Positions 2,421-14,610 of a stretch of DNA of 64,000 bases are shown here, in pieces; within the stretch, counting starts at the first letter, position 1, and each line of letters starts with the position of its first letter. Below the pieces are notes generated by a model. The model was not told the DNA's origin. It made no database searches and saw only the letters and a list, made by a program, of their open reading frames with translations. A program made the position numbers and the translations under genes. The DNA is from Mangrovibacillus cuniculi (lineage in GTDB: Bacteria > Bacillota > Bacilli > Bacillales > R1DC41), in NCBI RefSeq assembly GCF_015482585.1, contig NZ_CP049742.1, positions 2,939,001 through 3,003,000 of the forward strand. The letters run 5' to 3'.

Positions 2421-2600
2421 CGTATTCAACTGAAACTGGCTTAATCCTGCATAGCAGGAACGGAGGAACCGATTAATTGGGGTTAATTTTACGTATGTAA
2501 AAGGGATGAAGTACTCTTTCGCCATCCTACCCGTCAGCTAACTTCGTAGGCTAAAGCGAGGGAGGTCATAGAGGCCACCTTTATATCAGGAGGTTTTTTT
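2421..2600 (+). ncRNA. Cyclic di-AMP riboswitch (ydaO/yuaA class) with terminator
   Basis: The leader contains the conserved blocks of the ydaO/yuaA motif in order: GGAGGAACC (about 2462), TTGGGGTTAAT (about 2477), GGGATGAAG, CCGTCAGCTAACTTCGTAGG (about 2531-2550) and GCGAGGGAGG. After the aptamer a short stem (CCACCT with AGGAGG) runs into seven Ts ending at 2600, as expected for an expression platform that stops transcription when c-di-AMP is bound. The genes downstream are ktrA and ktrB, the classic c-di-AMP targets, which supports the call. Confidence 0.85.
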
Positions 2601-13282: not shown

Positions 13283-13312
13283 TTTACAAAATTAACCTAT
13301 AAATGGTATAGT
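13283..13312 (+). promoter_or_regulatory. Promoter of the rsgA-like attenuator transcript
   Basis: TTTACA (13283-13288), an 18-nt spacer and TATAGT (13307-13312) predict transcription from about 13319. Confidence 0.6.
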
Positions 13313-13346
13313 GATATTATCAAATTCGGAAAGTGAGGGATGACAT

Positions 13347-13415
13347 ATGAGTGTATATATGACTGTAGTAGAAACTCAATTAAATATGGTGGTACATCCC
13401 TCCAAGTGGAACTAA
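13347..13415 (+). CDS. 22-residue leader peptide of rsgA-like gene
   Basis: An ATG preceded by GTGAGGG at good spacing opens a 22-codon frame whose product ends VVHPSKWN. The last codons form the 5' arm (13391-13406) of a long hairpin, so a ribosome on this ORF would block that hairpin. No homologue is recognised. The case rests on position, the ribosome site and the downstream structures, as in translation-controlled attenuators. Confidence 0.55.
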   Translation: MSVYMTVVETQLNMVVHPSKWN

Positions 13416-13523
13416 CCTGTCGTTTCATTACTATTTTCTTCTGCTTGGAAGGATGTGCCGTACTTTGTATCGGACATTAACTTACCAACAGTGGGTCAAG
13501 ACCGTTACGTACGGTCTTTTTTT
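13391..13523 (+). promoter_or_regulatory. Attenuator: anti-antiterminator hairpin plus terminator
   Basis: Arm 13391-13406 pairs with 13444-13459 at 15 of 16 positions. A rho-independent terminator follows (AAGACCGT-TACGT-ACGGTCTT then Ts, 13498-13523). The segment GCCGTAC (13457-13463), partly inside the first hairpin, can instead pair with GTACGGT of the terminator. That gives two mutually exclusive folds upstream of the GTPase gene. Confidence 0.6.
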
Positions 13524-13548
13524 GTACCCAAAATCAGGAGGAAATACA

Positions 13549-14610
13549 TTGAATAGTAAACAATTTGGATGGAACGAAATTAGAGAAACACAACGTCAGG
13601 ATTGGCCAGATACAAACGCCATTCCAGGAAGAGTATTAGTGGAACATAAGCGTATGTATCGCATTGCAACAGATCACGGAGAATTACTTGGTGAGATCTC
13701 TGGTAAGTTGCGTTTTGATGCACTAAGCAGACTAGATTATCCAGCAGTAGGAGATTGGGTGATGATCCACGCAAGGCCAGAAGAAGGAAAAGCAACGATA
13801 CAAGGCATCCTACCTAGACAATCTTTCTTCTCACGTAAAGTGGCAGGAACGACCTTGGAACAACAGATAATAGCGTCGAACGTGGACACTGTCTTTCTTG
13901 TAAATGCATTAAACCAAGACTTCAACATAAGAAGAATGGAAAGATATCTAGTAATGGCTTACGAAAGTGGAGCGAATCCAGTATTTGTTCTGACAAAAGC
14001 AGACTTGTGTGATGATGTGGAGGAGAAGCGCCAACTAGTGGAAAACATAGCATTTGGTGTACCAATCCACGTGGTCAGTGCACGGACAAACACTGGTATG
14101 GAAGAATTAGAGCCTTATCTACAAGAAGGGAAGACAGTTGCTTTATTGGGTTCCTCTGGTGCGGGTAAATCAACGTTAACCAACCTTTTCTTGGGGGAAG
14201 AAGTTCAATTAGTGAAAGAAGTACGAGAAGATGACGACCGCGGGAAGCATACGACCACTCATCGAGAACTGTTTCCATTACCGACAGGAGCGTTACTCAT
14301 TGATACACCGGGTATGAGAGAATTGCAACTGTGGGAAGCGGATAGTTCTAGTGATCATGGTTTTTCTGATATTAAGGAGCTAGCAGAAAGGTGTAAATTT
14401 AGAGATTGCACACACAAAGCCGAGCCAGGCTGCGCAGTGCAAGGAGCAATTATGTCAGGAGAATTAGAGAAAGGTCGTTTTGAATCCTATAAAAAGCTTC
14501 TAAGGGAACTTGCTTTCATGGACAGAAAAGGGGATAAAGTTCTTGAAAAAGCTGAAAGAGCAAAATGGAAAAAAACAAGCCAAATGATGAAGAAGAATTC
14601 CTTTAAATAA
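13549..14610 (+). CDS. rsgA: RsgA-type circularly permuted GTPase (second-copy form)
   Basis: A 353-residue protein that acts in late 30S ribosomal subunit assembly. Motifs run in the permuted order of the YjeQ/RsgA family: OB-fold first, then G4 (TKAD, about 150), G1 (GSSGAGKST, about 200-208), G3 (DTPG, about 252) and a zinc knuckle C-x4-C-x-H-x5-C (about 282-295). The C-terminal tail is rich in lysine. TTG at 13549 follows AGGAGG with 8 nt; the frame extends upstream through the terminator but is not expected to be translated. It is longer than B. subtilis YloQ/CpgA (298 residues) and not in the yloQ neighbourhood, so it is probably a paralogue. Its leader suggests induction when translation is disturbed. 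Confidence 0.88.
   Translation: MNSKQFGWNEIRETQRQDWPDTNAIPGRVLVEHKRMYRIATDHGELLGEISGKLRFDALSRLDYPAVGDWVMIHARPEEGKATIQGILPRQSFFSRKVAGTTLEQQIIASNVDTVFLVNALNQDFNIRRMERYLVMAYESGANPVFVLTKADLCDDVEEKRQLVENIAFGVPIHVVSARTNTGMEELEPYLQEGKTVALLGSSGAGKSTLTNLFLGEEVQLVKEVREDDDRGKHTTTHRELFPLPTGALLIDTPGMRELQLWEADSSSDHGFSDIKELAERCKFRDCTHKAEPGCAVQGAIMSGELEKGRFESYKKLLRELAFMDRKGDKVLEKAERAKWKKTSQMMKKNSFK

Follow-up and report, generated by a model that had tools for sequence, protein, structure and literature searches.

A conserved leader with a predicted ribosome-sensing switch precedes an accessory RsgA-type GTPase gene in Mangrovibacillus cuniculi and its relatives

Attenuation governed by a ribosome on a small leader ORF is a kind of mechanism already known, for instance from vmlR, bmrB and toiL. 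In Bacillus subtilis, the antibiotic attenuator ahead of vmlR has been studied experimentally. It follows an anti-antiterminator/antiterminator/terminator design: a short uORF has its Shine-Dalgarno sequence (SD) inside the anti-antiterminator, the terminator is intrinsic, and a further hairpin lies on the SD of the gene; according to the passages considered here, its cognate drugs stall initiating ribosomes (PMC9226507). The bmrB leader of bmrCD, studied experimentally in the same species, is described in the sections used here as ribosome-mediated attenuation with the same three alternating elements (PMC4191407). In E. coli, ribosomes exposed to tetracycline or retapamulin stop at the start codon of toiL, the uORF of topAI, by which the downstream SD is freed, as stated in the relevant part of PMC12121999. 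Two further cases concern the kind of gene controlled. At the hflXr/rli80 locus of Listeria, a small-ORF attenuator controls an accessory copy of a GTPase that associates with ribosomes (PMC6310831, in the portion considered), and SCO6149, an RsgA/EngC paralogue of Streptomyces, is listed among the WblC-activated genes where tetracycline treatment is discussed in PMC7157823.

Here we describe the leader of a gene, rsgA2, located in a window of 64,000 nucleotides of the Mangrovibacillus cuniculi genome. It is likened to vmlR by design, not by sequence, and vmlR differs in its target, an ABC-F protein; a translational read-out through the SD of the gene exists in vmlR, as far as the passages considered go, and is predicted in the window, but is weak in most relatives. 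The bmrB system differs in that a multidrug transporter is controlled and in that the B. subtilis terminator lies inside the small ORF, as described in the sections used of PMC4191407. Start-codon arrest that frees a downstream SD makes toiL similar to the switch predicted in the window, although toiL acts through translation and Rho in E. coli on an unrelated target, and no intrinsic terminator is mentioned in the part of PMC12121999 used. The attenuator of hflXr shares the accessory GTPase with rsgA2, whereas the GTPase is of the HflX type, the peptide carries an RLR motif and the drugs are lincomycin and erythromycin, according to the portion considered of PMC6310831. SCO6149 is likewise an extra RsgA-type gene, found in a translation-antibiotic regulon, but is regulated by a transcription factor in the passages considered (PMC7157823), and it is likened by its RsgA-type family, not by sequence comparison with RsgA2. 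An RsgA paralogue under an attenuator was not found in the open-access literature searched, nor was such a leader found in the parts considered of PMC8632094, PMC2965389 and PMC7815308.

The rsgA2 product matches TIGR00157 at 183.3 bits (cut-off 100) and PF03193 at 188 bits (cut-off 30), and a second, stronger PF03193 match in the same genome, at C1:919907, represents the other RsgA; the claim of an earlier note on this DNA that the gene codes for a second RsgA-type GTPase is thus borne out. In 15 sequences, GSSGAGKST, DTPG and KxD, which we take to be the GTPase motifs, as well as C282, C287, H289 and C295, presumably the zinc site, are invariant or nearly so. RsgA2 is present in 65 of 101 genomes of the order (protein search, best E < 1e-60, tallied from the result table). 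Its relatives are mostly full-length and approximately 42–65% identical outside the own genome; weaker matches (approximately 31–42% over the GTPase domain) were counted as the other RsgA. A scan of GTDB genomes yielded 80 named loci, mainly in Bacillaceae, Planococcaceae, Paenibacillaceae and other Bacillota, with a few in Cyanobacteria, proteobacteria and others. Among 72,556 plasmid records, 185 RsgA-type matches were found, all below 60% identity and not all of them RsgA2 proper. In one relative, RsgA2 appears in two adjacent pieces (G080:C365:251-1197), likely due to a frameshift or an assembly fault.

The putative promoter, the 22-codon ORF, the strong hairpin at the ORF end and the U7 terminator that the earlier note had placed in order ahead of the gene were all found. 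Three features are additional to that note: a possible pairing of the leader SD with the ORF end (13335-13342:13395-13402), a hairpin at 13453-13477, and an anti-SD (13432-13443) facing the SD of rsgA2 (13535-13546). Coordinates are given in the table; segments are numbered from the leader ribosome binding site (RBS) and start codon (0) and the ORF end (1) to the arms of the first (2, 3) and the second terminator (4, 5). The SD of the leader ORF is GAGGG at 13335-13339. The ORF-end helix joins 13391-13406 with 13444-13459 (15 of 16 bp) and can be extended to 13389-13411/13439-13461; no match to it arose in 60 dinucleotide-shuffled versions of the downstream part (z 8.6). The overall folding of the leader stands out only modestly (z −2.0, 5/200 shuffles). 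Neither for the window leader nor for those of 18 RsgA2 loci did any Rfam family exceed its gathering score. Elsewhere in the window, a c-di-AMP riboswitch (ydaO/yuaA leader, RF00379, 78.7 bits) lies at 2428-2567 (+).

Table. Elements of the rsgA2 leader in the window, with the evidence for each
Feature	Position	Strand	Evidence or remark
Promoter-like site TTTACA-18 nt-TATAGT, TG ahead of -10	13283..13312	+	consensus scan, 10/12
Segment 0, leader SD GAGGGATG, pairable with 13395-13402	13335..13342	+	predicted pairing
Leader ORF, 22 codons, ATG..TAA, MSVYMTVVETQLNMVVHPSKWN	13347..13415	+	strong-SD small ORFs also upstream of RsgA2 in relatives
Segment 1, leader-ORF end; predicted partner segment 0 (OFF) or segment 2 (ON)	13389..13411	+	helix statistics, folding
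Anti-SD TATTTTCTTCTG, predicted on rsgA2 SD in OFF state; overlaps segment 2	13432..13443	+	z 4.3 vs shuffles, folding
Segment 2, 3' arm of ORF-end helix	13439..13461	+	helix statistics, folding
Hairpin 2:3 (ATGTGCCGTAC-TTT-GTATCGGACAT), equivalent of terminator 1 of relatives, minus U-tract	13453..13477	+	folding
Intrinsic terminator AAGACCGT-TACGT-ACGGTCTT (13498-13518), T7 at 13517-13523	13498..13523	+	counterpart of terminator 2 of relatives
rsgA2 SD region CAGGAGGAAATA	13535..13546	+	sequence; predicted to pair with anti-SD 13432-13443
rsgA2, RsgA-type GTPase, 353 aa, TTG start	13549..14610	+	family profiles

Small ORFs were surveyed at 110 loci (L009-L118), and a strong-SD small ORF precedes RsgA2 in 65 of 108 loci, while the same score is reached in 3.7% of shuffled upstream regions. 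For the pairing tests, in which helices were scored ungapped, 79 loci were picked by hand, and the small ORF at each was chosen for the strength of its SD and for where it lies; at a few of them (e.g., L020, L025, L071) a second ORF candidate was taken, as its peptide or position resembled those of relatives. The 31 omitted loci are partly duplicates of loci from the genome set and partly lack a credible leader (e.g., L032, L054, L056, L060, L063, L073, L074). After removal of 8 near-duplicates and of 11 loci that were very distant or did not belong to Bacillota, 60 non-redundant leaders remained. A similar leader is present at most related loci, and the end of its small ORF is able to pair with the leader RBS/start codon or with a downstream segment. 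Measured against shuffled partners, the pairing of RBS and ORF end (0:1) has a mean z of 1.64, with 26 of the 60 leaders at p ≤ 0.05 and 34 missing this level singly; for ORF end and downstream segment (1:2), the mean z is 2.27, 32 leaders reach p ≤ 0.05 and 28 do not. Swapping partners attained the observed mean in 0 of 2000 permutations for either helix. The control, RBS against downstream segment, gave no pairing in the same 60 leaders (z −0.07, 1/60, permutations 1755/2000). Covariation counts in 19 aligned leaders point the same way, since 0 of 500 shuffles attain the score in either state. The anti-antiterminator (0:1) and the antiterminator (1:2) are mutually exclusive and supported in relatives, and in the window foldings the two exchange with ribosome position. 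The small ORF and the hairpins are kept in relatives, so that the lack of conservation which the earlier note had named as refuting its reading does not apply.

In Bacillaceae-type leaders, segment 0 takes in the start codon, e.g., GGGTTGTATTATGAG with TTCATAATACAGCCC in L030, and the conserved peptide FI(A/S/V)QP can be explained by pairing of its RNA with segment 0 including this codon. Between leader ORF and rsgA2, relatives carry tandem terminators (e.g., L012-L028), the second often being GACCGTnnnnACGGTC. An additional pairing of the 3' arm of terminator 1 with the 5' arm of terminator 2 (3:4) has a mean z of 1.6 in relatives (11/21 at p ≤ 0.05; permutation 122/5000 in 15 Bacillaceae-type loci) and is backed by folding of their truncated transcripts; it is weak in the window (0.36). 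In the short-gap leaders L029, L034, L036, L085, L096 and L098, segment 3 is, by eye, the SD of rsgA2 itself, and the same sign of the switch would therefore serve translation. The leader is thus a real, conserved and functional-looking regulatory element.

Similar arrangements were noticed in two other places. The Cyanobacteria loci L062, L070, L064 and L081 carry long small ORFs with a strong SD and an ATGACTG start upstream of RsgA2; those of L062 and L070 are alike, and in both a pairing between RBS and ORF is supported (p 0.04 and 0.01), which suggests the same trick outside Bacillota. In Listeria, a strong-SD small ORF lies about 80 nt ahead of the rsgA next to pnp (L120 1330-1435), by eye a putative SD-sequestering arrangement like that of the translational class.

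The ribosome position that would flip the switch was predicted by footprint folding, in which the bases under a ribosome are made unpairable and the probability of terminator 1 is computed, at equilibrium and thus ignoring kinetics and pseudoknots. In the terminator-based sets (21 relatives plus the window; 35; 22), every locus has a first terminator that could be recognised. A ribosome at codon 1 opens terminator 1 (P < 0.5) in 19 of 22 leaders, at codon 2 in 17, at codon 3 in 16 and at codon 5 in 7; a ribosome at codon 8, codon 12 or the last codon, or none at all, leaves it open in 1/22. Other footprint sizes agree, and after shuffling of the ORF end opening occurs in only 13 of 176 cases. 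In these foldings, the antiterminator of the relatives competes with the intrinsic terminator 1. As opening is confined to early-codon footprints, the switch is predicted to answer a ribosome held at the start and not one at the ORF end. In the wider set of 35 loci, many leaders, chiefly of Paenibacillus, are without a start-codon effect (e.g., L077, L086, L088, L105, L112, L099, L108, L080). In many relatives, terminator 2 does not open at equilibrium, and a clear SD release upon start-codon block is seen at only 6 of 50 loci.

In the window, the ribosome at codons 1-4 gives helix 1:2 a predicted probability of 0.89-0.95, compared to 0.00-0.09 with the ribosome at later codons or absent, in which case the anti-SD sits on the SD of rsgA2 at 0.80-0.97. 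Accessibility of this SD is 0.46-0.51 for codons 1-4 versus 0.01-0.05 elsewhere, i.e., only about one half in the ON state, and the gain is matched by 2 of 200 variants with a shuffled ORF end. Across all states tested, the U7 terminator has a predicted probability of 0.88-1.00, and no transcriptional switch is therefore predicted here. Since SD accessibility shifts and the terminator is unaffected, the best reading of these foldings for the window is a translational read-out in which the anti-SD would release the SD of rsgA2. The opening of the terminator proposed in the earlier note is not predicted in any state, and this read-out is probably wrong for the window genome; as a switched element, the T7 terminator is unsupported, staying formed in folding. 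Its role here may be basal damping or kinetic control not captured by folding, or it may have decayed from the tandem arrangement that relatives have. When the transcript is cut at the terminator, helix 1:2 forms even without a ribosome (0.82). As 1:2 thus wins before the SD of rsgA2 is transcribed, the switch in the window would work only at equilibrium in the longer transcript.

Taken together, we think it probable that a ribosome-sensing attenuator turns on the accessory RsgA GTPase upon arrest at the start of the strongly initiated leader ORF (about codons 1-4). The parts, their conservation and the mutually exclusive pairings are apparent from sequence and statistics; the position of the ribosome that would flip the switch is a prediction from folding. 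Without a ribosome at the leader start, segment 1 would pair with segment 0, and segment 2 would form hairpin 2:3, which in relatives is a terminator or a hairpin on the SD of the gene; in the window, the anti-SD, being free, would cover the SD of rsgA2. A ribosome moving on, or covering the ORF end, would lead to this OFF state too. A ribosome held at the start would block segment 0, so that segment 1 pairs with segment 2, by which terminator 1 would be broken in relatives, while in the window the anti-SD would be taken away and the SD of rsgA2 freed. The natural signal may be initiation-blocking antibiotics, upon which RsgA2 would act on 30S or initiation complexes; judged by the analogous systems, drugs that arrest protein synthesis at initiation probably serve as the trigger.

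Support for a drug-related signal comes from a covariance model, R1, built from 19 leaders, some of which its own genome search finds again. R1 matches the window only at the leader (13325-13521, 25.1 bits, E 0.0027); the whole-genome search with stricter filters did not reach the window leader at E 0.001. In 199 genomes, 61 matches were obtained in 59 genomes, and 59 of the 61 precede RsgA2 (46 adjoin it by tblastn, 13 by protein-search coordinates). The other two, L151 1718-1880 (−) and L152 146-289 (+), with E-values of 9.9e-6 and 4.6e-4 per genome, precede BmrC-like transporters; that a model made from leaders of RsgA2 also picks up those of two BmrC-like genes is a further likeness to bmrB. 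The downstream products begin with MFSVL.KL.WFFK..WKRYM, which we assume to be the start of BmrC/YheI-type transporters. Both transporter leaders have small ORFs and tandem terminators.

The antibiotic-type, ribosome-sensing attenuator with a leader ORF that the earlier note had recognised is supported as a kind, with induction itself a prediction; the inner workings it had proposed are quite improbable. In that model, a ribosome stalled at the ORF end frees the 3' arm of the 15/16-bp helix, which makes a 7-bp pairing with the 3' arm of the terminator and so causes read-through. All parts are present in order, and in the R1 alignment CCGTA..TACGG of the window even falls on the stem of terminator 1 of relatives. 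The competing helix itself does exist in the sequence (GCCGTAC 13457-13463 with GTACGGT 13509-13515), but its predicted probability is 0.00-0.02 at every ribosome position tested, with the terminator at 0.88-0.96 in all positions, and this antiterminator was rejected on folding. Moreover, when the ORF end is covered, segment 2 folds into 2:3, and the inducing ribosome is predicted at the start codon instead. The sign is also reversed, as the ORF-end helix, taken as the OFF helix, is the antiterminator (ON) in relatives. Even less credible is a drug-dependent arrest by the nascent peptide at an internal codon, as in ErmCL, for which the stretch FI(A/S/V)QP or QLNNxxQP conserved in many leaders could be cited. 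However, it is the RNA of this stretch that forms the pairings with the RBS/start codon and segment 2, the N-terminal half of the leader peptides is variable, and a block at an internal codon keeps the OFF fold. Peptide-specific arrest was rejected as the main reading.

RsgA-type GTPases act on 30S maturation, and solved RsgA relatives exist. This, together with the prediction that the trigger is a ribosome detained during initiation at the leader start, would suit a homeostatic GTPase loop, in which the signal read by the leader would be slow initiation on the part of 30S subunits that are defective or immature (lacking RsgA activity, in the cold or during starvation) rather than antibiotics. 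We consider this unlikely, since drugs are pointed to both by the R1 matches upstream of BmrC-like drug transporters and by WblC activation of the Streptomyces paralogue, as presented in the passages considered of PMC7157823.

Attenuation upon arrest at the leader start therefore remains our preferred reading, and for RsgA2 itself a role in coping with initiation-blocking drugs is favoured by analogy, because of the WblC-activated RsgA/EngC paralogue, a line for rsgA in a table on producers of protein-synthesis inhibitors (PMC9290621, in the part considered) and the initiation-type trigger. A more far-reaching and tentative idea is that accessory RsgA GTPases in Bacillota and beyond form an inducible rescue or protection system for initiation-blocked ribosomes: the leader would detect a ribosome stuck at the start, and the GTPase would clear or remodel 30S or initiation complexes, as an initiation counterpart of HflXr or the antibiotic-resistance ABC-F factors. 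A paralogue of a ribosome-assembly GTPase, annotated as an ordinary RsgA, gains a predicted role in the response to a block of translation initiation. If true, the inducible defences directed at the ribosome, which include HflXr and ABC-F proteins, would be joined by a factor of the RsgA type.
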